This document shows positions 43,991 to 61,945 of a stretch of DNA of 64,000 bases, piece after piece. The translations under genes and the position numbers were made by a program. Each line of letters starts with the position of its first letter. Position 1 is the first letter of the stretch. The stretch is taken from the NCBI RefSeq assembly GCF_000024605.1, contig NC_013385.1, positions 1,297,501 to 1,361,500 of the forward strand. The letters are read 5' to 3'. Source of the stretch: Ammonifex degensii KC4. GTDB taxonomy: Bacteria > Bacillota > Desulfotomaculia > Desulfotomaculales > Ammonificaceae. Below the pieces are notes generated by a model, which was not told the DNA's origin, ran no database searches, and was given only the letters and a program-made list of their open reading frames with translations.

Positions 43991-44806
43991 CTAAGGGTTG
44001 CACACCTTGCACGGCCTGTAGCCCGCCTCCAGCGCTTCCTCCTTGTTCCTGAACTCCACCCGGTTCCGCGGGCTTATCTTCTGTGCCCATTCGCAGTCCG
44101 GCCGGTGGAAGACCTTCGACCTGGCGTTGCCGATGTATTTGGTCTCCTTGCCGGTCGGAGGCGCGGCCGGGGCCAGGCCCCACAGCCCCTTCCCCCGCTC
44201 CCTCGCCTCCCGCTGGAACTTGACAAACTGGTCGGCGTACTTCACGTTGGGTTGGATCGTCATGACCTGGGCGTAGCCGTCCAGCAAGAGCCGCGCGTTG
44301 AACATCTTCGCCCGGACTTCTTCCTCGGAGCCGGAAGAAGGCGGCTCAAGCCACACGTAGGCCAAGAGCCTGCCGTACCTGTCCCTCTGCTGGACGTCGA
44401 ACTCCAGCCAGACCTTCTTTCCGAGGAGCTGCTTCGCGGTGTATTCCTTAGCTTCCCGGCCGTAGGGCTGCTCCTTTATGCCCAGGTCCGGGTGGCTTAC
44501 CTCCGGGCAGTTGACGCCGATCATCCGCACCCGCTCGTCGCGGCCGTCGAGGTTCACGTGGACGGTGTCCCCGTCGGAGACGGAGGTGACCAGGGCTTCG
44601 ATTACCCGGAGTCCCGGCCTGACTGATTGCTCCGGCGAACCGGTCTGTGAGGGCGCCTGGTTAGCGAGCTGCTCCTGAACTGCCTGAGTCGTCTGGCCTT
44701 TGCTTGAATTGACCTGCGGCTGCCCGCCGCAGCCCGCGAGCAGGAGAAAGGCGAAAACCAGCATCAGCAGGCGGGCAAAACTCGTCAGACCGAACCGACT
44801 CCGCAA
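43991..44806 (-). CDS. Thermonuclease (SNase) lipoprotein with Ada-like metal-binding tail
   Basis: A 271-residue exported nuclease. The N-terminal lipobox is LLLAGCGGQ, so it should be a membrane-tethered lipoprotein. A staphylococcal-nuclease domain follows (SVSDGDTVHVNLDGRDERV, RMIGVNCPE, then GREAKEYTAKQLLGKKVWLE and DRYGRLLAYVW). The C-terminal 45 residues hold a Cys/His module (FHRPDCEWAQKI, YRPCKVCNP) like the Ada metal-binding domain. It would degrade DNA or RNA outside the cell in a Ca-dependent way. The TTG at 44806 is preferred because GAGGAGG lies nine bases upstream. Part of its tail is repeated 17.9 kb away. Confidence 0.88.
   Translation of the reverse strand: MRSRFGLTSFARLLMLVFAFLLLAGCGGQPQVNSSKGQTTQAVQEQLANQAPSQTGSPEQSVRPGLRVIEALVTSVSDGDTVHVNLDGRDERVRMIGVNCPEVSHPDLGIKEQPYGREAKEYTAKQLLGKKVWLEFDVQQRDRYGRLLAYVWLEPPSSGSEEEVRAKMFNARLLLDGYAQVMTIQPNVKYADQFVKFQREARERGKGLWGLAPAAPPTGKETKYIGNARSKVFHRPDCEWAQKISPRNRVEFRNKEEALEAGYRPCKVCNP
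43996..44056. repeat. Direct repeat copy 1 (Ada-like tail of the nuclease)
   Basis: About 60 bp coding for EEALEAGYRPCKVCNP recurs in the same orientation at 61,885-61,945 with only a few mismatches. The other copy has no intact gene around it. Confidence 0.7.
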
Positions 44807-44969: not shown

Positions 44970-46601
44970 TCAGAACTTCCGGAACATCTTATCTAACCAT
45001 TTCACAGTTTCCGGTGTGGCACGATGGGGGTACGTCATAATGAACAGAAGCATCAAAATCGGATCCTGCCTCAGGATTGTAGGAAGGCTACTGTCCTGAC
45101 AGTCAAATGCTTCTTTCTGGAGATCTTTCCAATGCTTGGTTAGCGGCGGATATTCACATACGTTGATACCGTGCCCGGATCGCCACAGGTAATACTGCCA
45201 GGGCTCTGCTGGCTCGAACTTCAGGAATGCTAGCCGGGTCAGGTCGGGCCATATGCCTCGCAGATGTTGTTTCCAGTTCCGCTTGGCTACCAAGTGTAGG
45301 AGTCCTTTAGCCATGTAAGAGACACCGGATGGTTCAGCTAAATCCTTACCCTCCTTTTCTGAGAAGCCCAAGACCTCTAGTAAGGCGCCCTCGATGTTCT
45401 GGTAGGGATCCGCAAGCGAAGGTCCCTGCTTACCGTTTCGGGTTGCAATGAGTTTCAGTAAGCGCATAAGCATAAAATCGCTGTTGGAAGATCCATCAAC
45501 CTCCTTGAGGAACCAGTAATAGGCCAGAAACTGTGGAACCGCCCCTTCACCCCATACTACCATCTGAGACCCCATCGTGAGGCAGAAATTGCGAACGAAT
45601 TCGAAGTGCTCCTCGTTTTGCTGGCCATAAATTCTTTGCCATAGGCCGTAGACGCTCATCAGGCCGACCAGTTGGGTTACACGTACCTTACGTAACAGCG
45701 GAAGATCAGCTAACGCGTCCCCTTCTACTAGATGCGATCGCATGCGCAGTTCCTCACATAGCTTGCCGAGCAAACGAAAGATCGTGTCTTTTGCTGTTTC
45801 CAAGTTATTGTATATCTCACACCGGGTAATTCCCCACCGTTCACAGGCCGCCAGCAAGGCGGCGATGTATATCACCCATGCTTCGATCTCAGCGGCGTAG
45901 TTCTCCGCTCGTGACCACGGTGATGTAGCAAGCGCGCAGAGCAAGGCGGAACTTGCTGCTGTCCGAACCAACTGAGTTTTGGACGGTACCGCGTTACTGT
46001 ACAACCCCATGGTGGTCTCTAGGAGATGGGAGACCTTAGCCTTGGGTAGTGGTCCCTGACCATTGTCAAGAAAAAGTTCTAGTAAGATGTTCACATCCGC
46101 AAACTCCGTCGGCCAAGGTGTATGATCTAGCGCCATCCTCAACAATTGGCCCCGCACAATTGTCTCCAGCCGAATTTCCGGGAGGCCCCGATTTTCCCAG
46201 CCCCGGTTTAGATCATCGATCGCCCGGGCCACTTCCTCATCCAGGTCTCGGTTTGTGACCAAATACGAGCGGTGACGCGTGGAAGGTGGAAAAGAGGGGT
46301 GCACAATCTTACCCAGCATAAGGTCATGGATCTGAGGAGCGATTTCATTCCGCCACTGGGTTAGTGTAATCCTTTTACCAGGAGACGACTTGAGCTGGAA
46401 CGCACAGGGAACCCCTTGGGGGTCAATAGCGATAATATCCTTACCCATTTCGATGTTACTGTGGCGCGTCAGGTGAATTACAGTATACCCTTGAGAGAGA
46501 AGCATGAAGCAAAAGGGTGCCTCAAGGGTTCTTTCGTTACAGCTATCCAACCAATTTTCGAGAATTCTCTCTTTCACGCCACTCAGTCCTCTTCTTCTCA
46601 A
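44970..46601 (-). CDS. Large protein with N-terminal PD-(D/E)XK-like nuclease domain, otherwise unknown
   Basis: A 543-residue protein. Residues 30-110 look like a restriction-endonuclease-like fold: an early Glu (APFCFMLLSQGYTVIH with E27 before it), GKDIIAIDPQGVPCAFQLKSS with the D-x(n)-Q-x-K signature seen in Mrr and HJC-type nucleases, then a helix. The remaining 430 residues are helical and match no family I can name; they may sense or bind a partner. The TTG at 46601 is given; a GTG at 46577 is an alternative. It overlaps the upstream unknown gene by 59 bp, so the two are coupled. Base composition is AT-richer than the defence module to its right. A role in defence is inferred from location. 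Confidence 0.55.
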   Translation of the reverse strand: MRRRGLSGVKERILENWLDSCNERTLEAPFCFMLLSQGYTVIHLTRHSNIEMGKDIIAIDPQGVPCAFQLKSSPGKRITLTQWRNEIAPQIHDLMLGKIVHPSFPPSTRHRSYLVTNRDLDEEVARAIDDLNRGWENRGLPEIRLETIVRGQLLRMALDHTPWPTEFADVNILLELFLDNGQGPLPKAKVSHLLETTMGLYSNAVPSKTQLVRTAASSALLCALATSPWSRAENYAAEIEAWVIYIAALLAACERWGITRCEIYNNLETAKDTIFRLLGKLCEELRMRSHLVEGDALADLPLLRKVRVTQLVGLMSVYGLWQRIYGQQNEEHFEFVRNFCLTMGSQMVVWGEGAVPQFLAYYWFLKEVDGSSNSDFMLMRLLKLIATRNGKQGPSLADPYQNIEGALLEVLGFSEKEGKDLAEPSGVSYMAKGLLHLVAKRNWKQHLRGIWPDLTRLAFLKFEPAEPWQYYLWRSGHGINVCEYPPLTKHWKDLQKEAFDCQDSSLPTILRQDPILMLLFIMTYPHRATPETVKWLDKMFRKF

Positions 46602-47133
46602 TCAACTCGTTATACCGACGTGCAAGCTCAGGCTCATCATGCAGACGTTGGAGTTCTGCCTTTATGCGAGGTGCCATGTTAGGTGAACAAACCAAGGCGA
46701 GTTCGTGAGGAGTCCCGTCTTCATAGAAGTCCAGTTGAACCTTTTCAAGGACCTCCAGGTACATTTCTGCAGTGAACGGCCTTCCTCCGGCGTCGATCAC
46801 GTTTCCTACTCCCTCGGCGCTTTTCGATATCTCTCCGTAGAAGTGCCGGGCCACTTGCGATTCTATTTCCTCTGCTGCGGTATCGATCCTGGCAATTATG
46901 TCTTTCGTGGTGATGCTATCCCACTGCGACAAATCTAACGAGATTTTGCTTGAAGCCTCTTTGAATTCGTCCTCAACCACTGAACCATCAGCCCTGACAA
47001 TGCGATAGCGATGTCCTTCGTGATAACGTAAGTGTTTGGCTCTTTGAAAGAGCCATGGCATCGAGCGGGTCTGTATTCGCTTACTGAGAGCTTCAAGGAT
47101 CTTCTCTTTAACCTTGGGAAAATCAGGTAGCAT
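46543..47133 (-). CDS. Unknown protein coupled to the PD-(D/E)XK-like gene
   Basis: A 196-residue soluble protein with no recognised family. It has an amphipathic start (LPDFPKVKEKILEALSKRI), a beta-rich middle (YRIVRADGSVVEDEF), a region rich in acidic helices (TAAEEIESQVARHF), and a C-terminal part (VQLDFYEDGTPHELALVCSP) that ends in a long basic helix. The ATG at 47133 with GGGAGGG nine bases upstream is chosen over 47151. It overlaps the nuclease-like gene that follows. It could be an antitoxin, adaptor or recognition subunit; nothing in the sequence decides. Confidence 0.55.
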   Translation of the reverse strand: MLPDFPKVKEKILEALSKRIQTRSMPWLFQRAKHLRYHEGHRYRIVRADGSVVEDEFKEASSKISLDLSQWDSITTKDIIARIDTAAEEIESQVARHFYGEISKSAEGVGNVIDAGGRPFTAEMYLEVLEKVQLDFYEDGTPHELALVCSPNMAPRIKAELQRLHDEPELARRYNELIEKKRTEWRERENSRKLVG

Positions 47134-47231
47134 ACTGGCGATCCCTCCCATCGAATTCTACAGTTTTAATGACTTTATACTCCGCTTTCGCCCGCACCTC
47201 AAATAGAGGTATGCCTCCTATGCCTCCTTTC

Positions 47232-48287
47232 TTACCCGAACAATTTGTCCCACGCTTCGAGCACCAGACGCTTTGTTCGGTATTCGCCGTACTGGCGCTC
47301 TTCTTTTTCTTTGAGTACGCGAAAAGTCTCGCCGGGGAAGTCGGGGCCAAAGACATCCCTGGGGTCGAGGATGTAGCGCAGTTCATCCCGGGTCAGCCCG
47401 TAGAGCTTGGCGTAGTAGGCGTCGAGCTCGGCGCGGATGACGGCGCGGCGCTCGGAATCCCAGCGGAAGGGTGGTATCGCTTCGGCGTCCGGGTGGACCT
47501 TTGGTGACCTGCCGCGGCATTCCTGCCAGCGGCGGGCGATTTCTTGGCGCAGCTCCCGCGGGCACTCTTGCCAAACCTCCCGCGCAAATGCTTCTAGGTC
47601 CCAGGCGGTATAAATTAGCTCTAGCACGCGGGGAACGATGAAGGAGAGGTCGGATTCGGTATAGGCATCGGGCGGGAGGACGGGAAGTTGTTTAAAAGTT
47701 ACATACTTTAAATGTACACCTGGAATCTTTTGACGTGCAGTATAATCGAAAACAAATGTGTTAAAATTAGCCATTAGACAACATACTTCTCTTGTAGGTT
47801 TTGGTGGAAACATTAGCAAGAAGGTATCCCCGCACCCCAAACGAGGAGCAACAGCAGCTACAACGGTACGTTCATTGGTGGCGTTTGTTATGTCCCGCCA
47901 GCCCATCAGCCAACCCCGCTCCCACTTCCAGAGGAGCTGCGTACCGTCGCGGCTCCATTGCTCAAGCCGCTCCTCCACCTCCTCCGCCGGTACCCAATAG
48001 CGCGGCAGGACGAAGTAATGCGGGTCGGCGTACTCTTCCTCCCGCGGCGTGGGGAGGTGAGTGCTGGAGGTGTTTGGCGGCACGCCCTTATAAGTGCCGA
48101 AGCGGTGGTCGAACTGCCAGATCATCTTGGCCTCGTAGAGGGGCAGCCAGATCTCGTCCCCGCGCACGTAACAGAGTCCGTCGGGCCGGCCGAGCTCCCG
48201 GCCGCGCACGAGCACGTATCCCTGGTCCTCCAGCTCCTGCGTCGTGCGGAAGAGGTGGCTGTCGTTGGACATATCAAACATCCTCAT
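47232..48287 (-). CDS. DISARM-like DNA methyltransferase, C-terminal part (split by frameshift)
   Basis: A 351-residue frame that continues the methyltransferase upstream. It carries the target-recognition part of Eco57I/PglX-like enzymes (MFDMSNDSHLFRTTQELE, LPLYEAKMIWQFDHRFGTY, GWRDITNATNERTVVAAV, FNTFVFDYTARQKIPGVHL). In homologues these motifs follow the catalytic part without a break. In this frame the upstream sequence reads NPWGVRFMRMFDMSND, the expected junction. The break lies at TTTTCCCCCC on the plus strand (48307-48316), where one extra base would account for it. Alone, this part has no SAM site. Confidence 0.8.
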   Translation of the reverse strand: MRMFDMSNDSHLFRTTQELEDQGYVLVRGRELGRPDGLCYVRGDEIWLPLYEAKMIWQFDHRFGTYKGVPPNTSSTHLPTPREEEYADPHYFVLPRYWVPAEEVEERLEQWSRDGTQLLWKWERGWLMGWRDITNATNERTVVAAVAPRLGCGDTFLLMFPPKPTREVCCLMANFNTFVFDYTARQKIPGVHLKYVTFKQLPVLPPDAYTESDLSFIVPRVLELIYTAWDLEAFAREVWQECPRELRQEIARRWQECRGRSPKVHPDAEAIPPFRWDSERRAVIRAELDAYYAKLYGLTRDELRYILDPRDVFGPDFPGETFRVLKEKEERQYGEYRTKRLVLEAWDKLFG

Positions 48288-51231
48288 AAACCTTACGCCC
48301 CACGGGTTTTCCCCCCGTCTGCTCGTTGACCAGCACCGGCACGCGCCGGTAGATTTTCTTGGTCAGCTCAGCGTCTTCGCGGGTGCGGAAGACGGGACAG
48401 GTGCGGGTGTTGGGGTTAAAGAGGGCCAAGTCCTCCGGGCTCATCTCAAAGACGCGGCGGCCGTCGCGCAATTGCTCGGTGCGGGTGAGGAAGAAGGCAA
48501 AGCGCAGCGGAGTTTTTTCTTCCCCTTGGCCCCGCATGGTAAGGAGGGAGAACTTATAGCGACTGTCGACTGCCGGGAAAATTCCCTCGCGGTTTTCGAA
48601 GTCATAAAGGCTCACCAGCCGCCCGGTCTCCACCAGGTGGGCGAAGAAGTGCTTGTTGGTGTCGTCGGTGGCGATGCCCGTGGGGAGCACCACGCCGGTG
48701 CGTCCGCCCGGGCGGAGGAGCTGGGAGAAAAGCTCGGCAAAGACGCTGTAAGTGTTGATGTCGCCGCGGGCGGTAAGCGGAAAGCGGCCGCTGGCCCGCA
48801 GGAATTTGCTTTGAGCCTCGGCGGCGTGCTTGGCCTCCTGATATTCCTCCCAGAGGGCAGGGTTGGTGGCCGGCAGGGCTTTAATGAGCCGCCGGCGCTC
48901 CGCCTTATTGAGGGCGTTGGCAATCTTCGGATCCCGGGTGGCAAAGAACTCTTCCTCCTGGAGCTTGATGCGCTCCCAGGGCGGGTTGCAGAGCACCACG
49001 TCGAAGCCGCCCTGCTCAAAGACTTCGGGGAACTCCAGGGGCCAGTGGAAGAAGCGGTGCTTTCGCGCCAGGTTCTTGGCGGCTTCGGCCACGCGCGAAC
49101 CAAGGCTTCGTCCCTCCAGATAAGAGAGGAGAGCATCGTTGGTCGGGATCCTTCCCTCTTCAAAGGCCTGCCGGGTGAGGCGGGCGAAGAAGGCGGCGGT
49201 GAAGATGTCGCACGCCGTGCGCCAGTACTCCTTAGCCTTCTCCAGCCCGGCGTAAAACTCGGCCTTGAGGCGGACACTCTCCACCATGTCGTCGGACAGC
49301 TCGGACAGCCGCCGGTGCTCTTCCGCGAGCCGGCCGACCGGATCGGCAACCGCAGGGGAGCCGAAGGAGATGTAGGACTGGTCTTTCTCCCTCCGGTTCA
49401 GCCTCTTGAGCTGCTGCGCCAGTTTCCTCTCGTCCCCTTCGACCGGGTCGAAGGCCTCCTCGGGGATGCCCTTCCGCAGCACCCCCAGGTCGAGGACCCC
49501 CACCAGGGAGTCCCCGCACTTGATGCGGTGATCGAGGAAAGTGAGGGGCTTTCCGGGCAGGTGCCCCTCAATCCATAAGGCCACCTTGCAGAGCTCCACG
49601 GCCATCGGGTTTTTGTCCACGCCGTAGAGGCAGTGGGTAATGACCTCCCGCACGGCCTCACGTACTTCCTCCGGCGCCGGCTCGTCCGCCCCGGTGCGCA
49701 CCCGGGCCAGCTCCGCCCCCAGCCGGCGCGCCGCCGTCAGCAGGAAGTGGCCAGAGCCGCAAGCCGGGTCGCAGACTTTTATCGACAGGAGGGCCCTTTC
49801 CTTCTCCTCGGGCGAGCCTGCCTCCTTGAGCCTCTCCTCCATCACAGGCACGAGGGCGCTTTTCACCAGTTCCTCGACCAGTTCGCGCGGGGTGTAGTAG
49901 GAGCCGGTGGACTTGCGCTCCGTCCCGGGGGCGAGGTCGAAGTCGGCTTGGCCGGGGAAGACGGGACAGTAGTCCAGCAGGCTCTCGTAGACGCTGCCCA
50001 GTTCCTCCACGTCCAGAGCCGCGTAGTTGACCCGGCGCCAGGGAGAGCGATCGTCCTCCCGGTACACGGAGAGGTGCCAGAGAGCTTCCAGGAGCGACCG
50101 GTTGCTCAGGCTGAGGCCGGCCAGGTCGGCCAGGGCCTGGGACTCGAAGAGGGGCCCGTTGAGCGGGGGCAGTCCCAGGTGCTTCCCCAACTCTTCCTCC
50201 TCCAGGAGGCGGAAGGTGACCTTGAGCCCTTCCCAGAGATCGCCGTGCTCGGTGTAGGCCCGCCGGTTCTCGCACAGCCGACGCAGCCGGGTGACGCTGT
50301 AGTGCTCCCGGTAGACCCGGTTGGCGGTGAGCAGGTCGCGCTCCTCCGCCACCAAGAGGAAAAGGAGCCGGTAGACCAGGCGCAGGAGCTGCCGGTAGTA
50401 GTCGGCGGCCGAGAGTTCGCCGGAGGCGATTTTGTCTCTGAGAAGCTGGTTGTCCGGGTGCCGGAGAAAGCCCCGCCCCAGGATCTTTATCGCCTTCTCC
50501 ACCCCGTCCCGCAGGCGGTCGCGGACACGGCCGCCCTGCTCTATCGTGTCAAGGTAGTACCTCTCCAGCCAGCAGTCGGCGGGGGGCCCTCCTTCCCGTG
50601 GCAGGCGGGAGCGGTGGGCCAGGCGGTAAAAGAGGACAAAGTCGGCGAAGTTCCGCCCCTCCATCATCTCCCGCAGGTCGAACTCTATGTAGGCAGGCCT
50701 GGTGAGGCAAGGGGAGGCCCGGAGGATGCGGAAGGCAAAGCCGTTGGTGACCACGCCCCAGAGGTGCTCCGAGCGGTTGAGGTACTCCTGGACCAGGGAG
50801 TGGGGAGCGAGCCGCGGCCTACCCGCGGGCGGGCGGCGGTCCAGCGGCTGGCGGCAGCCCACGATGTGCACCGGAGGGGCGTCGTCACTCGTGCCAGCGC
50901 GGTGGGAGATGGCGTAGGTCTTCCCTTCCACCTCTGCAGCCCGGGGCATGTAGACCAGTTCGTACCCCAGGAGGCTCAGCAGCGGGATCACCCACTGGTC
51001 CCGGGTAGCGCTGGTAGCAGGGTCAGACTCGGGAAGGCGGTCCAGGCGGTGCAGGAAGGCCTGCCAGTGCTCCAACGCCTCCTGCCAGGCCGCGGCAGCT
51101 TCGCTCTCTACCCTTCCCTTCTCCAGCCCGAAGTCCTCCGGGCGCTGGCCCTCAGCCACGCCGTCGTAGATCCGGTCGACGAGGTCTGCGGCCAAAACGC
51201 CTCCCTCAATCCTCAGGCAGGAAAAGCGCAC
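48274..51231 (-). CDS. DISARM-like adenine-specific DNA methyltransferase (PglX/DrmMI-like), N-terminal part
   Basis: A 985-residue frame with a helical N-terminal region and a complete catalytic core. Motif I is DPACGSGHFLLTAARRL at about residue 430, motif IV is NPPWERI at about 700, with GVDKNPMAVELCKVALW between. The enzyme should methylate adenine-N6 to mark host DNA. GTG at 51231 is the start; its G is shared with the stop of the SNF2 helicase gene (TAGTG), so they are tightly coupled. The frame ends GRKVYEDV after a one-base slip; the rest continues in the next entry, giving about 1,330 residues in all. The size and gene order fit class 1 DISARM-related modules. Confidence 0.82.
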   Translation of the reverse strand: MRFSCLRIEGGVLAADLVDRIYDGVAEGQRPEDFGLEKGRVESEAAAAWQEALEHWQAFLHRLDRLPESDPATSATRDQWVIPLLSLLGYELVYMPRAAEVEGKTYAISHRAGTSDDAPPVHIVGCRQPLDRRPPAGRPRLAPHSLVQEYLNRSEHLWGVVTNGFAFRILRASPCLTRPAYIEFDLREMMEGRNFADFVLFYRLAHRSRLPREGGPPADCWLERYYLDTIEQGGRVRDRLRDGVEKAIKILGRGFLRHPDNQLLRDKIASGELSAADYYRQLLRLVYRLLFLLVAEERDLLTANRVYREHYSVTRLRRLCENRRAYTEHGDLWEGLKVTFRLLEEEELGKHLGLPPLNGPLFESQALADLAGLSLSNRSLLEALWHLSVYREDDRSPWRRVNYAALDVEELGSVYESLLDYCPVFPGQADFDLAPGTERKSTGSYYTPRELVEELVKSALVPVMEERLKEAGSPEEKERALLSIKVCDPACGSGHFLLTAARRLGAELARVRTGADEPAPEEVREAVREVITHCLYGVDKNPMAVELCKVALWIEGHLPGKPLTFLDHRIKCGDSLVGVLDLGVLRKGIPEEAFDPVEGDERKLAQQLKRLNRREKDQSYISFGSPAVADPVGRLAEEHRRLSELSDDMVESVRLKAEFYAGLEKAKEYWRTACDIFTAAFFARLTRQAFEEGRIPTNDALLSYLEGRSLGSRVAEAAKNLARKHRFFHWPLEFPEVFEQGGFDVVLCNPPWERIKLQEEEFFATRDPKIANALNKAERRRLIKALPATNPALWEEYQEAKHAAEAQSKFLRASGRFPLTARGDINTYSVFAELFSQLLRPGGRTGVVLPTGIATDDTNKHFFAHLVETGRLVSLYDFENREGIFPAVDSRYKFSLLTMRGQGEEKTPLRFAFFLTRTEQLRDGRRVFEMSPEDLALFNPNTRTCPVFRTREDAELTKKIYRRVPVLVNEQTGGKPVGRKVYEDV

Positions 51232-54092
51232 TAGCGCGTCACCCCCTTGGGCACGGGAAGCAGAACCAGGAGCCCGAGCAGGTCGGGAGGGAGTTGCGGG
51301 CGCACCGCCAGGCCCCGCCGGAGCAGGCCGGCGGCTGCCCTCACCCGCCGGTGAGCCTCCTCCAGCCGCCGAGCCCTCTCCCGAACCACGGCCTCGACCC
51401 GGGGCAGGAAACCCTCCCAGCGGCCCAGCATCTCGGACAGCACCTCGCGGCGCTCCTCCGCAGTGACGGGCGCTTCGGGGCCGGCCTCTGCGAGAAGCGA
51501 GAGGGCTTCTCCTTCCTCCAGCACCGTGACCTGATCCGGGAGGGTCCCACGAAAGCCTGCGACTAGCACCTCCTCGGCCAGCAGGCTCCGCTCCCGGCCA
51601 GGCTCGTCCAGCAGGTAGCGCACCCGCAGGAGCGTGAGGACCGTACGGCGCCGCACCTTGGTCGTGCGCACGACACCGCAGCGCGCCGCCGGCACGTTGC
51701 CCGCCCCGGCGAGGGCGCCTTCCAGCAGGTACCGGGCCAGGGCGGTGACAAAGGGGTGGTTCCGCCCCAGGTACGTCGCCCCTTCGGGAGCAGGAGTCTC
51801 GAAGGCCACCCGCCACGGGTTCTCCGGCAGCGCCTGGCGCACGACAAAGGGGAGGTCGACGCCGCGGGGGACGTAAAGGCTGAAGCTACCGTCTCTATCC
51901 TGGCGGACCCCGCAACCCAGACGCTGCCAGGTGCTCAGCACGAACCGGCGCACCGCCCCGGGGTCGCCCAGGACCCTGTCGGTCTCCTCCAGCTCCCGCT
52001 GCACCTCCTCGGGCTTGATGGACCGCTGGGCGAAGCGGGTGCGGGTCTCCTTCTCCCTGCCGGCGGCTTCGTCCCACCGTTTGTGAAACTCCTGCACGCG
52101 GGGGTCGCCGAAAAGGCTCAGCTGCACGTAACCGCGTCCCCCGTCCCTCGCGCGGGCGAAGAGGGCTCGCAGGACGGCCTCCATGACCGACTCGCTGTCC
52201 TCGGGGACGGGCACCGACACCCCCAGGCTCCGGCGTATCTCTCTGGCCTTGCGCAGGAGCACGTCCAGCACCGCGCCGTCCACCGGGTTGTCCCGGCCGT
52301 AGAGGAGGACGGCCTTGACTTTCTTCGCCCGCTGCCCGAAGCGGTCCACCCTCCCCTCCCTCTGCTCCAGCCGGTTGGGGTTCCAGGGAAGGTCGTAGTG
52401 GACCACGGCGGTGAAGTAGTCCTGCAGGTTGACGCCCTCGCTCAGGCAGTCGGTGGCCACAAGGACGCGGCGCGGGTGGCGGGAAAGGGCCAGGACCGCC
52501 CCGCGCCGGTCCTCCTCCGGCCGGGCACCGGTCACCGCTTCCACAGCCAGGTCGGGAAAAGCGGGAGCCAGGCGGCGCCTGAGTTCCCCGGCCACGTACT
52601 CGGCTGTGGCCACGTACCGGCACCAGACCACGGGCTGGTACCCCTCCCGCAAAAGCTCGGACACCACCTGGGCGCACCGCACTACCTTGGTGTCCTCCTC
52701 GCTCCCGCACAGGGCTTGAGCCTGCCGGGCAAACTGGCGGAGCCTCTGCCGCTGAGCCTCCGAGAGTTCGCTCCCCCCTTCCTCCACCGCGTGAGCCGGC
52801 TCCGCGTCCACGGGCTCCTCGTCGGGCAGGTCGTAGACGAAGGGAGCGTAGGCAGCGTCCCCTACCTCCTTCTCCCCCTCGGGACGGCCTGAAGCCTGCT
52901 TCAGCAGGGCGGCCACGGCGGCGGCAGGACTTGACATAACACACCGCAGCAAGGAGAGGGCCGCCCAGAAGCAGATGCGCCGGCGCCAGCCGGTGAGGGC
53001 CTCGCCGGCGCGCACGAGCTCCCGGCTGAAGCTGTAGACACGCTGGAAGAGGTCCCGGTACGCCGGGGATAGCTCGTAAGTTTCCTCCACGCTCTCCCGC
53101 TCCGGAAAGCAGGTGTGCTCGCCCAGCCAGCGTGCTATGTCCGGGCGGCGCCTCTGCACGAAGTGGCGCGCCACTTCCTCCCGTTCTTTATCCGTGAGGC
53201 TGCGGAAGCTTAGTCTGGCGAAAGAGGGGCGCAGCAGTGCCAGCAGAGAGACAAAGGACTCCTCAATGCCGCTGTGGGGGGTAGCGGTGAGGAGCACGAG
53301 GTGCCTCCCGGGGTCGGCTGCCAGGGCTTTGAGCAACTCGTGGCGCTGCTGCTGGGCGCGGGAGGCACTGCCCGGCTGGGCCGCCCCGTGAGCCTCGTCC
53401 ACGATCACGAAGCGGGGGCAGTGGATGAGAAAGTCCGCCCGGTGCCGCTCCGACTTGGCGTAGTCTATGCTGACCACCAGGTGCTCGTAGTAGCTGAAGA
53501 TGCTGGGCTCGCCGGGGGGCAAGCCGCGCTCCAGCCGGCTCACCGTGCCCGAGCGCACGACCTCCGCGTGGATGTGAAACTTCTCCGCCAGCTCCCTCTG
53601 CCACTGGTCGCAGAGGTAGGGCGGGCACAGCACACAGACGCGGTCTATCTCCCCCCGGTCGAGGAGTTCCCTGGCGATAAGCAGGGCCTCTATGGTCTTG
53701 CCCACACCCACGTCGTCGGCTATTAAGATACGCACCGGGTCGAGCCGCAGGGCCATCAGGAGAGGCACCAGTTGGTAGGCGCGGGGCCGCACCGAAATTC
53801 GGCCTAGACAGCGTAAAGGCGTGGCCCCGTCCCGCAACAGGAGCCGGGCGGCGTTCCACAGAAGTTCCACGCCGAGAACTTCCCCGGCTTCCTCCGGGGC
53901 GGGAAGGGGAAACGCCGCCGGCTCAAGCTTCTCCAGGCCCGCTTCGACCAGGGGGCGGTACACACCGCACTCCTCTTCCTCGTCCCCAACCAAGGGACGG
54001 AGCCTGATGACCTCCGGCGAACTCGAGGGCAGCACCACCCACTCGCGCCCCCGACAGCGCACGATACTGCCCGGTGCCGCTACCACGCCCAC
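51231..54092 (-). CDS. SNF2-like helicase (DrmD-like) of a DISARM-related system
   Basis: A 953-residue SNF2-family ATPase. Walker A is IADDVGVGKTIEA, motif II is VIVDEAHGA, motif III is LLTATPHSG. Motifs V and VI are DCLSEGVNLQDY and RLEQREGRVDRFGQ. An N-terminal and a long C-terminal region flank the motor, as in DrmD. It should translocate on DNA, probably to find unmethylated or phage DNA for its partners. The GTG at 54092 is chosen; GGGGGAGGGAAG lies just upstream, and the frame beyond it is a non-homologous extension over the helicase end. It begins 2 bp after the upstream helicase stop. Confidence 0.85.
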   Translation of the reverse strand: MGVVAAPGSIVRCRGREWVVLPSSSPEVIRLRPLVGDEEEECGVYRPLVEAGLEKLEPAAFPLPAPEEAGEVLGVELLWNAARLLLRDGATPLRCLGRISVRPRAYQLVPLLMALRLDPVRILIADDVGVGKTIEALLIARELLDRGEIDRVCVLCPPYLCDQWQRELAEKFHIHAEVVRSGTVSRLERGLPPGEPSIFSYYEHLVVSIDYAKSERHRADFLIHCPRFVIVDEAHGAAQPGSASRAQQQRHELLKALAADPGRHLVLLTATPHSGIEESFVSLLALLRPSFARLSFRSLTDKEREEVARHFVQRRRPDIARWLGEHTCFPERESVEETYELSPAYRDLFQRVYSFSRELVRAGEALTGWRRRICFWAALSLLRCVMSSPAAAVAALLKQASGRPEGEKEVGDAAYAPFVYDLPDEEPVDAEPAHAVEEGGSELSEAQRQRLRQFARQAQALCGSEEDTKVVRCAQVVSELLREGYQPVVWCRYVATAEYVAGELRRRLAPAFPDLAVEAVTGARPEEDRRGAVLALSRHPRRVLVATDCLSEGVNLQDYFTAVVHYDLPWNPNRLEQREGRVDRFGQRAKKVKAVLLYGRDNPVDGAVLDVLLRKAREIRRSLGVSVPVPEDSESVMEAVLRALFARARDGGRGYVQLSLFGDPRVQEFHKRWDEAAGREKETRTRFAQRSIKPEEVQRELEETDRVLGDPGAVRRFVLSTWQRLGCGVRQDRDGSFSLYVPRGVDLPFVVRQALPENPWRVAFETPAPEGATYLGRNHPFVTALARYLLEGALAGAGNVPAARCGVVRTTKVRRRTVLTLLRVRYLLDEPGRERSLLAEEVLVAGFRGTLPDQVTVLEEGEALSLLAEAGPEAPVTAEERREVLSEMLGRWEGFLPRVEAVVRERARRLEEAHRRVRAAAGLLRRGLAVRPQLPPDLLGLLVLLPVPKGVTR

Positions 54093-54093
54093 C

Positions 54094-54885
54094 TTAATCT
54101 TCCCTCCCCCTGCCGAAAATGTCGGGGTAAGCCCGGACCTGCTCCTCCAGGTCCCGGTCGGAGCGGATGACCACCACCCGGTAACCCAGTTCCCTGAGTT
54201 CCGCACGGCAGGCCTCGTCCCGCCGCCGCATCGCGTCCGCGTCGTGAACCGGACCATCGCAGAAGACGCAGATGTTGGGCTCGTAGAAGAAGTCGGGAAT
54301 GGCCGGGTAGTCCGCCAAAGCTTTCTGGGCCTCGTCCGGAAGCCTCCGCCCGGTGCGGTAGAGGTGATCCAGAAAGCGGCGCTCCAGCTCCGAGCGTGAG
54401 TCGGTGAGGGAGCGAAGCCAGCGGTAGTGCTCATCGTAGGGACGCTCCGCCTTCTCCTCCCTGGTGAAGCCGGAGGCCAAGCGGGTCAGGGCCTCATACA
54501 CGAGGTGGCGGTTGAGGCGGTGATGATCGAGTTGGTTGGTGTAGGAGAGAAGGCAACCGTAGCAGGCCCGCGCGCAGCCCTCCTCGGCACCAAAGTGGCA
54601 GCGCTTCAGGGCCGCGCGGGCCACCCTCGCCAGCGCCCCGCGGTCGCGCACCAACTGGCGCAGCACCCCTACCCCTCCCTCTGCAGCCTCCCAGTAGAGG
54701 ATGGCGCGTGACTCCCCCTCCCCGATACGCTCGGAGGCGATCTCGGCCTCCTCCACCTGGAAGACCTGCTCCATGCCCCGCTGAAGGGCGTACTGTAGAG
54801 TAGCCAAGAAGTCTTCTTCCCGCCAGGATGGGTCAAGGGGATAGACCAGCAGGAGGTTCTGGGTGTCCCTCACGACCAGGCGCAC
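54094..54885 (-). CDS. DUF1998 and nuclease-like C-terminal part of the large helicase (after frameshift)
   Basis: A 264-residue continuation of the large helicase in another frame. It begins at VRLVVRDTQNLLLVYP and contains the DUF1998 metal motif (CHFGAEEGCARACYGCLLSY). It ends in a compact nuclease-like domain (IPDFFYEPNICVFCDGPVHD, then AELRELGYRVVVIR) of the Vsr/DUF559 pattern, where Asp of PDF and Asp of CDG with the following His are candidate active-site residues. The preceding residues in this frame are low-complexity Gly/Arg and are not real. Fusion of a DUF1998 helicase to such a nuclease would put recognition, translocation and cleavage in one chain. Confidence 0.75.
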   Translation of the reverse strand: MRLVVRDTQNLLLVYPLDPSWREEDFLATLQYALQRGMEQVFQVEEAEIASERIGEGESRAILYWEAAEGGVGVLRQLVRDRGALARVARAALKRCHFGAEEGCARACYGCLLSYTNQLDHHRLNRHLVYEALTRLASGFTREEKAERPYDEHYRWLRSLTDSRSELERRFLDHLYRTGRRLPDEAQKALADYPAIPDFFYEPNICVFCDGPVHDADAMRRRDEACRAELRELGYRVVVIRSDRDLEEQVRAYPDIFGRGRED

Positions 54886-57800
54886 CGCTCGTGCCTGGCA
54901 GAAGAGGCAGCAGGAAGGTCCTCCGCCACCTCCTCCTCTCCCTTTCCCACGAACTCTCCCGTAACGGGGTCGATCAGGAAGTGCTCCGCGGGCGGGCGGT
55001 GGCGCCAGCCGCTGTTCACGCGGTACAGAAAAGCCGAAGGGGCATAAACCAGGCGGAGGAGTTGCCCGCCGGCCTCGTCGCAAACCACGGCGGATGCGCG
55101 CCGGAACTTACCACCGGGGGCGGGGGCAAAGCGGAAGTGGGTCGACACCCGGTAGCCGCGGCGCACCCTTTCCTCCTCGCCGCAGGTGATGCGCTCCCGC
55201 CGCCTGGTCCTGACGTTGGGCATGTCCAGAAGCACCGCCACTTCGCTGTTGTGGGCGTCCAGCACGGTCCCGCAGTTGGCGCAGACGTCCGCCTTCTCGT
55301 CGTCGTGGTAGAAGCCGCACTTGAGGCAGAGCTTGGCCCTCCCCAGCCGTTCCTCAAAGCCGCCGGGCGGGAACGTGGCGCCCACCACCTGGTACTTGGC
55401 CCCGTCATGGTAGATGATGTTGAACGGACCGAACTCGGTGAGGGCCAGGAAGCGCGGCCTGGCGATGTACTCCCCCTCCCCACGCGGGACAAAAGCCCGC
55501 AGGGGGAGTCGGGGGAAGTTGTACCCGGGCAGGAAGCCCTCGCTGGCCAGGTAGCGGTAGGGATAGAAGTCGGCCTCCTCCCGGGCGTCGGTCTCGTTTA
55601 GCAACAGGCGGCGTTGCCGGTCGAGTTCCTGCATGATCCTGCGCGCCTCTTCCTGCTCATCCCGACGGCGGGAGCGGTAGTGCCTCTCCTGGGTCTCCCG
55701 CAGCCGCAGCATGGTCGCACGGTAAAGCTCGCGCCAGCGCCCGAAGGCCTCATCAAATGTGCGCGGGGCACGGCGCAGGACGTTCTCCAGCCACTCCTCG
55801 GAATACCAGTCGCTGTCCCGAAGGTCGGGGTCGCAAGTAGACAAGACGGCCCGGGCCTCCTCCAGGCACTCCTCAAGCCGCCTCTCCGAAAGCTCTATCT
55901 GGGCCCGCACCTCCTCCCGGAGAGGAAGGTTTTCAAGATCGTCTATGTCTATCCAGTCCTCGATAGAACCCGTTTCCGCGCGAAGCCCTACCTTGGCCAG
56001 CCAGATGGCGTGGACGTGCGCCCGGATAAGATCCTCGTTACCTAAGTCGATGCGAGGGCACTGGACCGCCCCGGCGACCATGTCCGCCCGGTGCCGGAAG
56101 AAGTACCGGTCGTGGCCGCTGCGCGCTGCGCAGTAGGTGAGTACCAGCGCGGGACCGCCGCGGCGGCCGGCCCGGCCGCTGCGCTGGGCGTAGTTGGCCG
56201 GCGTGGGAGGAACGTTGCGCAGGTGGACCACCCGCAGCTCGGCAATGTCGATACCGAGTTCCATGGTGGGAGAGCAGAAGAGACACTTGAGCTTCCCCGT
56301 CCTGAACCGCTCTTCGCGCTCCATCCGTCTCTCGTAGGGGATCTGTGCCGTGTGCTCCCTACCCTCGACCCCGCGCAGCTGGCTCGCCGCTTCCTGGTAG
56401 AACCTGCGGAAGAACTCGTTGACCTTCCGGCGTGCCTCGGTGTAGACCGGGCTTTCCACCCGCCGGGTGTACACGGGATCCGGCGGGGGCGGGTTCCCCT
56501 CACCCCGGCGCCACACCAGAGAGGAGGCATCGAGCTGCAGGTACACCCCATCCCTGTCGGAGTACCTGACCAGGTAGCCCCAGCTACAGAGGAGCCCCGC
56601 CAGCTGCAGGAGAAACTCGCGGTAGTCAGCGGGGGAAAGCTGGAGTTCCCGGCACAGGTAGCGGCCAATCCGGCTGCGCTCGCTCAGACTCCTCTTCCTG
56701 TGCCTGAGGTCCGCCGTGCCCTCGAGGACAAACCTGGAGGCGGGCCGGAACCAGTCCTCCTCTTCCCACCACTGCTCGTTTATCTCCTGGCTTATCTTCC
56801 GGCGCAGGCGTTGCTGGTGCTCCTCCTGGAGGCAGGGGGCGTTAATGGCCAGGTGGTGCCGGAAGTAGTCGAGGAAGGCCTTGACAAGACGGTAGCGCTC
56901 CTCCGGGGAAAGAAACGCCAGCGGCCCGCAGGCACGCCACCTATCCCCGTCCTCGCAGAGTTCCCTCAGGCCCCGGTAGTCAACCTCGAGGAGGCCGCAC
57001 TGCTCCAGGTTGGGCTGAACAACGCGCCAGCTGCGCTGAAGATCTTCGTAGAGGCGGTACTCCACCAGGTCGCGGAAGGTCCGCCACACGTCGCGCCCCC
57101 GCGGGGTGCTTGGGTCGAGGTCCGGGTTCTGGGCCACATCCTGCACCTCAAGGCCCAAGAAGGAGATCACCTTGTCCGTGAGTTCGTCATAGCGAAGTTC
57201 GCCGTGGGCTTCGAGGGCGCGGTAAAGGGCCGCCCGGAGCAGGGAGAGGCGGACGAAGTCGTTGAAGTGTCCCGCCTGGAGCGAGGCGTCCTGGCGGTTG
57301 TCGGTGAAGCTCAGGACTTTGCGCTCCTTCTCCTCCAGGCCCGCCTCCTCGGCGTGCAGCAGGGCCGAAACTGTGAGGACAGTGGTCGCACTGCTGCGCC
57401 CCTCGCTGGAGAGGCGGGTCAGCTTGCGGAACTCTCTGTCCCGGCGGGTGTATACTTCCCCGCAGCCGAGGCAGAGGAGGAAAGGCTTGGGCTGAAAGAA
57501 AGCCTTGACGGCGCCGGGGGCCGGCTCTTCAACAAACCTGCCGTCGGGGTAGACCCAAACCTCCCTGGGAACCGCGTCCCGGTACGACCTCTTCACCCTC
57601 CCCCTGTCGTCAAGCCACTCCGGAGGGAGGTGCTCGGGATCGGGCGCCCACCCTCCCAGTTCCTCCTCCAGGGCCAGATACCCGGGAGTGACCGCCCCCG
57701 CCGGGTCGAAGAACTCTCCCTCCGGCTCGCGGGGAAGGAAGCGCCTCTCTGCCTCGTCAAGCCACACGTCATAGTATGCTTGCCCGCACAGACGGCAGAA

Positions 57801-59162
57801 CTCGAGGGGATAAAGAACCCGCGCACCGTCCTCGCCCGGCGCGTAGTACTGGCCCTCAAGGGTCAAGTAGCGGGAGGAGGGGGACTCCAAAGTGGCGTAC
57901 ACCGCCTGCCCCTGGCCGATGAACTGGTGAAGCTTCAGATTGAAGATGGGATTTCCGTCCGATCCACGTAGCCTGCTGCCACGGAGGAAGAACTCGCGAA
58001 GGCGCTCGCAGCACAGAGCCTCGTCCGCGCCCGTCTCCTCCGCCAGCCTCTTCGCCCCCTCCGCCAGGGTGATGGGCCTGCACCTCTCCATGCCACCCTC
58101 GGGATCGGGACGGACTCCGTAGTTCCGCTCGATCCACCAGGTGAGGGGATGCCGCAGAAACTCCTCCGCCGTCTCGGGGAGAGGCCCTTCCAGAGAAGCC
58201 CGCAGTTCCACCGGCGACACTTCGCTCAGCCGGGAGAGGGGGCGGAAGTACTCCTCGATGACGTTGTCCGGCGGGACCGTGACGCCGAAGACCTTGCTGG
58301 CAAACTCCGCCACTACCCGCCGCCGCTCAGCAACGCCTACTTCGCCGCCGCTCACCATCGTGGCGCTGGTGCCCACGCAGACGAGATCGGGGTTCCCGCA
58401 ACGCGCACGCAGCCGCCTTATGAGCAGGGCCACATCTGCCCCCTGCCTGCCCCGGTAAGTGTGCAGCTCGTCAAAAACCAGAAACTCCACATGCGAAGTG
58501 CCCCGCTCGATGAAGAGCCGCTCCCGGGGGCGGAGCAGCATCAGTTCCAGCATCACGTAGTTGGTGAGCAGGACGTGGGGAGGCTTCTCGAGCAGAGAGT
58601 TTCTCTCCGCTTCCTTCTCCTGCCCCGTGTACCTACCGAAGCACACGGGGAAGTCCTGGCCGGTCCGCGCGCGGAAAGCCTCGGCGTACCTCTCCAAGGC
58701 CTCGTACTGCGAGTTGACGAGGGCGTTCATCGGGTACACGATTATCGCCCGCACTCCGGCCCGCGCCGGATCGCCCCGGAGAACGGCGTCGAAAATGGGG
58801 ATTAGGTAGGTCAGGGTCTTGCCCGAGCCGGTGCCGCTGGTCACCACGAACGGCTCGCGGCGCAGGGCGCACTCGACGGCGGCCTGCTGGTGGCGGAAAA
58901 GCCGCAGGGGCTGACCGTTTTCCTGTCGAAAGATCTCGGCGCAAAGGGGATGGAGGAGGCCTTTTCGGCACAGCTCTTCTACAGTGGAGGCCGTTTCATA
59001 AGCCGGGTTCAGTTGCAGCAGGGCCTCGGGCCAGAGAGCGTTGTTCTCGAAAAGCTCCCGCTCCACGCGCTCGCGCACCCGCTCATCGGCTATGTTGAAG
59101 AAGCTGCGCACATAGTTCTTGTAGTCCTCCAGTATGGATGAGGCGTATCGGAAAACGCTCAC
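54870..59162 (-). CDS. Large DEAD/DEAH helicase of a DISARM/Druantia-related system, N-terminal and middle part
   Basis: A 1,430-residue frame. Walker A is TSGTGSGKTLTYLIP at about residue 100, motif II is VFDELHTYRGRQG, motif III is GTSATM. The second RecA-like domain has FCSPTMELGIDIAELR and NYAQRSGRAGRRG far downstream, separated by a large insertion with zinc-binding pairs (CRLCGQAY, CLGCGEVY). Another zinc ribbon follows (CLKCGFYHDDEKADVCANCG). This layout is that of very large DUF1998 helicases of phage-defence islands. GTG at 59162 is the start, behind GGGGAGGG. The C-terminal DUF1998 and nuclease-like parts are in another frame, the slip lying at 54,886-54,945. With it the protein would be about 1,690 residues. 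Confidence 0.82.
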   Translation of the reverse strand: MSVFRYASSILEDYKNYVRSFFNIADERVRERVERELFENNALWPEALLQLNPAYETASTVEELCRKGLLHPLCAEIFRQENGQPLRLFRHQQAAVECALRREPFVVTSGTGSGKTLTYLIPIFDAVLRGDPARAGVRAIIVYPMNALVNSQYEALERYAEAFRARTGQDFPVCFGRYTGQEKEAERNSLLEKPPHVLLTNYVMLELMLLRPRERLFIERGTSHVEFLVFDELHTYRGRQGADVALLIRRLRARCGNPDLVCVGTSATMVSGGEVGVAERRRVVAEFASKVFGVTVPPDNVIEEYFRPLSRLSEVSPVELRASLEGPLPETAEEFLRHPLTWWIERNYGVRPDPEGGMERCRPITLAEGAKRLAEETGADEALCCERLREFFLRGSRLRGSDGNPIFNLKLHQFIGQGQAVYATLESPSSRYLTLEGQYYAPGEDGARVLYPLEFCRLCGQAYYDVWLDEAERRFLPREPEGEFFDPAGAVTPGYLALEEELGGWAPDPEHLPPEWLDDRGRVKRSYRDAVPREVWVYPDGRFVEEPAPGAVKAFFQPKPFLLCLGCGEVYTRRDREFRKLTRLSSEGRSSATTVLTVSALLHAEEAGLEEKERKVLSFTDNRQDASLQAGHFNDFVRLSLLRAALYRALEAHGELRYDELTDKVISFLGLEVQDVAQNPDLDPSTPRGRDVWRTFRDLVEYRLYEDLQRSWRVVQPNLEQCGLLEVDYRGLRELCEDGDRWRACGPLAFLSPEERYRLVKAFLDYFRHHLAINAPCLQEEHQQRLRRKISQEINEQWWEEEDWFRPASRFVLEGTADLRHRKRSLSERSRIGRYLCRELQLSPADYREFLLQLAGLLCSWGYLVRYSDRDGVYLQLDASSLVWRRGEGNPPPPDPVYTRRVESPVYTEARRKVNEFFRRFYQEAASQLRGVEGREHTAQIPYERRMEREERFRTGKLKCLFCSPTMELGIDIAELRVVHLRNVPPTPANYAQRSGRAGRRGGPALVLTYCAARSGHDRYFFRHRADMVAGAVQCPRIDLGNEDLIRAHVHAIWLAKVGLRAETGSIEDWIDIDDLENLPLREEVRAQIELSERRLEECLEEARAVLSTCDPDLRDSDWYSEEWLENVLRRAPRTFDEAFGRWRELYRATMLRLRETQERHYRSRRRDEQEEARRIMQELDRQRRLLLNETDAREEADFYPYRYLASEGFLPGYNFPRLPLRAFVPRGEGEYIARPRFLALTEFGPFNIIYHDGAKYQVVGATFPPGGFEERLGRAKLCLKCGFYHDDEKADVCANCGTVLDAHNSEVAVLLDMPNVRTRRRERITCGEEERVRRGYRVSTHFRFAPAPGGKFRRASAVVCDEAGGQLLRLVYAPSAFLYRVNSGWRHRPPAEHFLIDPVTGEFVGKGEEEVAEDLPAASSARHERCAWS

Positions 59163-60460: not shown

Positions 60461-61411
60461 CTATTCTCGAGTTCCCAGTCCTTTTGGTAGGGCTGCGATG
60501 CGATCCCGGAAGACCCTGGCGAACCTACCCAGCATTTCGACCGCCCAATCCTGCAGTTGGTTTAAGCGTTCTGGTGGCTCCTCGACGGTCCCGTCGGTGT
60601 AAACCGCTATCCGTCGCGCCCGCGGCAACTCCTCCCAGGATAACGCCTGCCCCACCTCCTTTTCTATCTCCTCTCGCTGGGCATACAAAAGGTCAAACGC
60701 TTCTTTGTTATGCTCAAGAGACCCCAGGTCGATGCAGAGCTCGACTCTGAGCTTCCCATCCCGCGCAAAAGCTACCGCAAAGTTAAAGCCCGTCCGCCCG
60801 GCCCCTATGCTCAACCAACTCTGCGGCAACCCTTTTCTGGCCGCGGTAAGTCCGGGAAACCTTTCTCTAAGCTTCTCCAGGACACCGGTGAAAAACTGCC
60901 GGTAGGCTTCTTGCCTGGGAGAAGGCCTTGGTGCCTGCTGCTGCTTCACCCAGCCGCTTGGCTGCACTACCACGTTGAAGTTGGGCGCGGGCAGCGAGTC
61001 GCCGATCTTGAACACCTCGACCTGGACGCCGAAGAAAAGCCGCTCCTCAGTGGATATGGAATTCAGTCACTCGAGCGCCTGGCGGTGCTCATCGCGAAAG
61101 TCCGTCGCCACCCAGATAACCACCCCTGCATCTTTTCCAGCAGCGTAGGTCAAAAGCTTACCCAGGTGGTCATGATCGGTGGGCCCGAGTTGGTTTTCGA
61201 TCACCACCGGGCGTCCTGAGCCAACATCTTTCCCTACCATATCGACCCAGAAGTCGCCGACAACATCCTCGGTCTCAACAATCTCAAGATCTAGCCCCAA
61301 GGCCTCTGAAAGTTCCTGGATGTTATCCCTCAGCCACGGGGTGAAGTCCCACGCCTCATTGGGCCAGACTTCGCGCGGGTCGATCTTTTCGAGCCGTCCC
61401 AACTGCTTCAT
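60461..61411 (-). pseudogene. DUF4268 family protein, interrupted by one in-frame TGA
   Basis: Two adjoining frames in the same phase. The upstream part (61411-61067) has the nuclease-like pattern WVDMVGKDVGSGRPVVIENQ and TDHDHLGKLLTYAAGKDAG. It ends DEHRQALE followed by TGA (61069-61067). The downstream part continues LNSISTEERLFFGVQVEV and then the DUF4268 domain (GRTGFNFAVAFARDGKLRV). Relatives have Trp (ALEWLN) at the stop, so TGG became TGA by one change. The intact protein would have 316 residues. DUF4268 proteins look like restriction-endonuclease-fold enzymes often found near defence genes. Either a pseudogene or a sequence error. Confidence 0.75.
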
Positions 61412-61879: not shown

Positions 61880-61945
61880 TCAGGGATTGCACACCTTGCA
61901 CGGCCTGCAGCCCGCCTCCAGCGCTTCCTCCCTGCTCCTGAGTCT
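61880..61945 (-). pseudogene. Degenerate copy of the Ada-like tail of the thermonuclease
   Basis: The minus strand reads SREEALEAGCRPCKVCNP and stops. This matches the last residues of the nuclease at 43,991 (EEALEAGYRPCKVCNP) and its DNA is about 90% identical over 60 bp. Further upstream only frameshifted traces remain. It is a partial duplicate. Confidence 0.65.

Follow-up and report, generated by a model that had tools for sequence, protein, structure and literature searches.

Three tightly coupled genes on the minus strand of the Ammonifex degensii KC4 window (the whole 64,000-nucleotide stretch analysed here) very probably form an ARMADA Type I anti-phage operon whose function has recently been lost in this genome. 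ARMADA was defined in September 2025 (Bell et al. 2025, PMC12458937) by three components: a YprA helicase that carries DUF1998 and, at its C-terminus, a Vsr-type nuclease in one chain; a helicase of BrxHII/RapA type; and a methyltransferase resembling PglX. Since the published ARMADA Type I combines these genes, in this order, with a Vsr nuclease fused to the helicase (PMC12458937), the trio is neither a minimal DISARM nor a new system but belongs to a family already described; of the two options left by a first-pass annotation of this DNA, a minimal DISARM variant or a related but separate system, it is the second that held.

The operon spans 59162-47232 and runs from a YprA/DUF1998-type helicase through a RapA/DrmD-like SNF2 helicase to a PglX/DrmMI-like adenine methyltransferase, the helicase-first arrangement of ARMADA Type I. 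Its open reading frames lie head to tail and are tightly spaced, as the first-pass annotation had described them. The TAGTG at 51231 shared by the SNF2 stop and the methyltransferase GTG start is an exact overlap, as it had also reported, but the gap between helicase and SNF2 gene is 1 base (stop 54096-54094, GTG 54092-54090) rather than 2. GTG at 59162 is a plausible start for the helicase, since in the related locus L010 the homologue starts at the corresponding residue (MSVFQY in L010, VSVFRY in the window). L010, whose trio is intact (1692, 954 and 1347 aa), served as the frame reference for the operon genes. Features are listed in Table 1.

Table 1. Coordinates of the operon features and of the neighbouring PDC-S11 gene within the window.
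Feature	Coordinates	Strand	Basis
YprA/DUF1998-family DEAD/DEAH helicase, portion in frame 0: RecA1, insert (two invariant CxxC pairs), RecA2 and beginning of the C-terminal canopy	54870..59162	-	early stop; start aligned with L010
Helicase C-terminal part, -1 frame: MZB (DUF1998) zinc domain, then predicted Vsr-type PD-(D/E)XK nuclease	54094..54891	-	MZB E=2.1e-10; fold pLDDT 92; MrfA Z 10.5, Vsr Z 8.2
Helicase frame-break zone, including GGGAAAG and hairpin	54885..54948	-	comparison with L010
RapA/BrxHII/DrmD-like SNF2 helicase, intact, 953 aa	51231..54092	-	profile and structure matches
PglX/DrmMI-like N6-adenine methyltransferase, N-terminal part to frame break, with GxG (DPACGSGHF) and NPPW motifs	48274..51231	-	profile matches
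Methyltransferase C-terminal 351 residues, +1 frame; probable target-recognition part	47232..48287	-	79.7% identity to L010
Six-G run, one G more than in intact L010; methyltransferase break site	48311..48316	-	comparison with L010
PDC-S11/DUF4268 candidate defence gene, in-frame TGA (61069-61067) where L016 has Trp	60461..61411	-	comparison with L016

Profile searches of the three proteins with PADLOC models returned DruE as the best match for the helicase (4e-89), followed by Brx and DpdJ, with DrmA far lower (1e-12). The SNF2 helicase matched the DpdE model best (1e-198) and then DrmD (3e-87), RapA being the solved protein nearest to it, and the methyltransferase matched DrmMI best (2e-95). 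Helicase identity is 67% to L010 and 42% to Deinococcus radiodurans, both over the full length, and over short stretches 29% to Druantia III DruE and 36% to E. coli ARMADA II ArmC. ARMADA Type I helicases have a beta-barrel insert in which two or more CxxC zinc motifs are conserved; in the window helicase the insert after RecA1 has two invariant pairs (C190/C193 and C298/C301) within a strand-rich region, although a fold search of that region did not match the beta-barrel fold itself. A candidate BrxA-like insert after RecA1 is helical and gave weak winged-helix-like matches only, none of them clear, in the fold search. Of the OB-CON-DUF1998 portion of the Type I helicase chain we found the MZB domain, which in relatives lies in the same gene as the helicase and in the window is separated from it by the frame break. 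One further DUF1998 helicase occurs in the genome, and its size and match led us to class it as MrfA-like.

The first-pass annotation had read a single helicase chain ending in a PDFFY...CDGPVHD pattern like that of Vsr/DUF559 nucleases. The pattern is present, but no single open frame encodes the chain: frame 0 stops at 54870. We modelled the native 264-residue tail with AlphaFold2 using 57 relatives, and the confidently predicted structure bears out the guess of a Vsr-like nuclease: residues 1-139 resemble MrfA (6znp, as scored in Table 1) and DrmB (7s9v_B, Z 8.5), and residues 162-259 resemble I-Bth0305I (3r3p, Z 9.3), Vsr (1cw0, 24% identity) and NGO0050 (Z 7.7). A PDB profile search of the nuclease tail found the same three families, weakly, and most members of the tail family matched the DUF559/MTES_1575 nucleases in Pfam. 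In an alignment of 44 tails from many phyla, chosen as full-length homologues, L29, S37, E40, P55, Q59, D70, D82-G83, H86 and D95 are invariant; an ungapped text search of 80 loci found deviations from the motif in a few. Judged from these alignments the motif is conserved and not a chance pattern, and the tail is predicted to comprise a zinc (MZB) domain of MrfA type and, C-terminal to it, a PD-(D/E)XK nuclease of Vsr type with its active-site pattern. Vsr and I-Bth0305I share the fold of the last 100 residues, but the window nuclease is fused to a helicase and is only 18-24% identical to them in sequence.

The helicase and the methyltransferase are each split across two frames, which the first-pass annotation had overlooked. 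In the helicase, the MZB domain and nuclease (54891-54094) follow in the -1 frame, and loss of a single base near 54890 is the most parsimonious cause (the window reads GAG-CGG, whereas GAG-GCG-G is implied by L010). In the methyltransferase a stop falls at 48274, and the C-terminal quarter of the protein (48287-47232) is encoded in the +1 frame; the G run here (48316-48311) counts six in the window and five in L010. The main product of the helicase gene would be missing the MZB domain and nuclease, and the methyltransferase its C-terminal part. In addition, the neighbouring PDC-S11/DUF4268 gene reads ALE-TGA-LN, and its counterpart in Desulfofundulus thermobenzoicus (L016) reads ALDWLN. Identity to L010 is 67% before and 70% after the helicase break, and 68% before and 80% after the methyltransferase break; the parts beyond the breaks are therefore as conserved as those preceding them, indicating that the breaks are recent. 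Because the homologues are intact, this looks like the recent decay of a defence island in which two of the three operon genes and the adjoining PDC-S11 gene have been disabled, and the window copy has probably lost its function.

Both indels are single bases and one lies in the G run, so the operon might instead be intact and its frame breaks errors of sequencing or assembly, a reading with which the conservation downstream of the breaks and the lack of further stops in the trio also agree. The lesion in the PDC-S11 gene, however, is a substitution-type stop. Moreover, a control over 800 kb of the genome, taken in stretches and restricted to non-overlapping open reading frames but with a few apparent shadow frames remaining, flagged 5 of 68 orthologue comparisons (∼78 kb), several of them apparently spurious overlapping frames, as against three of four genes here. 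We regard the intact-operon explanation as unlikely, and error at the two indels as less likely than recent decay. Phase variation in a G tract, known from S. coelicolor pglX, where G8 changes to G7 (PMC4365076), is possible in kind and was rejected: six Gs make a short run, and neither the helicase lesion nor that of the PDC-S11 gene lies in a tract of this kind. The methyltransferase of D. radiodurans R1 plasmid MP1 is annotated as two genes (L103:17946-21497), and broken copies may therefore be common.

A programmed -1 frameshift at GGGAAAG would yield two helicase forms, with and without the MZB-nuclease tail, and would mean that the nuclease is rationed. This heptamer is the only A/T-type slippery one in the 1514 helicase codons, is in register, lies 26 codons before the frame-0 stop with the -1 frame open, and has a hairpin on its 3' side (-25.6 kcal/mol, z -1.7). 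That hairpin is nevertheless weak relative to shuffled sequences, and 77 full-length homologues are encoded in one frame and need no shift, although sampling through a helicase search may miss broken copies. Frame-0 similarity to L010 moreover seems to run on beyond the heptamer, which indicates a later deletion. We consider such frameshifting in the helicase highly improbable, and as the main account of both breaks it was rejected, since the methyltransferase would need +1 and not -1.

A helicase-based scan of contigs identified at least 552 relatives, from which we took 80 loci and added six stretches of related genomes to give 86. The 80 loci span Chloroflexota, Cyanobacteriota, Actinomycetota, Acidobacteriota, Planctomycetota, Deinococcota, archaea and others. 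The trio is complete in 47 of the 86: 36 in the window order, nine as SNF2-methyltransferase-helicase, one rotated (L023, methyltransferase-helicase-SNF2) and one on mixed strands (L075), so that 45 have the genes on a single strand in one of the two published orders. In the remaining 39 we did not find one or two of the genes, many of these loci being cut by contig or flank ends, and 47 of 86 is therefore not a frequency of the trio. In a quick 43-row tree built with our own references and without the published Type I reference WP_108720193.1, the window helicase groups with L010, L016 and L018 (SH-aLRT 100) inside helicases of the same type and apart from DISARM; the ARMADA II, Druantia and MrfA rows of this tree are long branches whose positions are unsure. 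The window operon resembles ARMADA Type I in gene set and order, in its one-chain helicase-DUF1998-Vsr nuclease, in its RapA/BrxHII-like SNF2 helicase and PglX-like methyltransferase and in the broad phyletic spread of its family, and differs in its broken helicase and methyltransferase frames.

The Type II system has homologous helicase, SNF2 and methyltransferase genes (E. coli; L102), but these are 24-36% identical to those of the window over partial lengths and are ordered SNF2-methyltransferase-helicase with a GajB-like fourth gene (PMC12458937). That gene, ArmD, has no match within the window, and the window gene order is likewise not that of Type II. Our Type II references were E. coli ArmC, which 518 of the 5426 complete genomes of that species carry, and a plasmid copy that neighbours a Druantia III-like pair and Zorya II. 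The models that match the window helicase best are those of Druantia III DruE (L105), but DruE is a 2104 aa protein with PLD domains (PMC12458937) and its partner DruH has no match in the window or the 86 related loci.

DISARM class 1 (L107, L108) shares with the window a DrmD-like SNF2 helicase and a DrmMI-like methyltransferase, and the DrmB fold recurs in the first part of the tail, but it has separate DrmA and DrmB proteins and a PLD nuclease, DrmC, none of which occurs in the window. Among 299 genomes of the same phylum neither DISARM and Dpd references nor the controls gave hits, and the reference DrmA, DrmB and DrmC proteins were taken from plasmids; they matched neither the window nor any of the 86 loci. 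BLAST at E 1e-3 matches the window helicase to neither DrmA nor DrmB, and DruE models outscore DrmA models for it by ∼250 bits. No PLD-type drmC is found at the locus, the genome's single PLD match lying ∼1.2 Mb away. The proposal that one protein here merges DrmA-, DrmB- and DrmC-like tasks in a minimal DISARM is barely credible, given that a motor and DUF1998 in one chain are the usual YprA-family layout, which the DISARM lineage splits (PMC12458937), and that the tail nuclease is of the Vsr PD-(D/E)XK type rather than a phospholipase D like DrmC.

In the paper that defined ARMADA, anti-phage activity was assayed for the Type II system only; its defence is non-abortive and depends on each of the four genes, on the helicase Walker motifs (in the case of Walker B in ArmD only in part) and on the NPPW motif of the methyltransferase (PMC12458937). 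By homology, mainly with Type II, the target and mode of action of an intact Type I copy would be as follows. The PglX-like methyltransferase would mark host DNA or gate self from non-self, the RapA-like SNF2 and YprA-like helicases would then load onto foreign DNA and translocate along it, and the fused Vsr-type nuclease of the YprA helicase would cut that DNA, so that the phage is stopped while the host survives. The window adds one more genome to the map of ARMADA Type I, and the intact Type I relative in Desulfofundulus thermobenzoicus (L016) is suited to testing. A gene-presence survey would score the probably dead copy described here as a defence system.

The operon is flanked by a phage-type integrase gene (41147-39972), PIN, DUF3368 and DUF5615 genes, an SNase gene and two further genes (47151-44970); no tRNA genes lie within the 64-kb window. 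The two genes at 44970-47151, directly downstream of the methyltransferase, have no confident family match, and the N-terminus of the larger resembles Mrr-type nucleases by eye (GKDIIA...CAFQLKS). L016 likewise has the PDC-S11/DUF4268 gene immediately upstream of ARMADA. A 58-nt direct repeat (93%; 43995-44052 and 61884-61941), corresponding to the 3' end of an SNase gene, brackets the ARMADA/PDC-S11 block, and SNase copies also stand on both sides of ARMADA in L016; these arrangements suggest that the SNase-flanked site may be an insertion hot spot. Among the relatives, GajB-like genes, thought typical of ARMADA II, occur near ARMADA-I-type helicases (L085, L064, L068, L040-L043, L057 and L086), and GmrSD type IV restriction genes adjoin ARMADA I in three related genomes (L010:14222-15916, L011:16953-18629 and L012:16106-17782).
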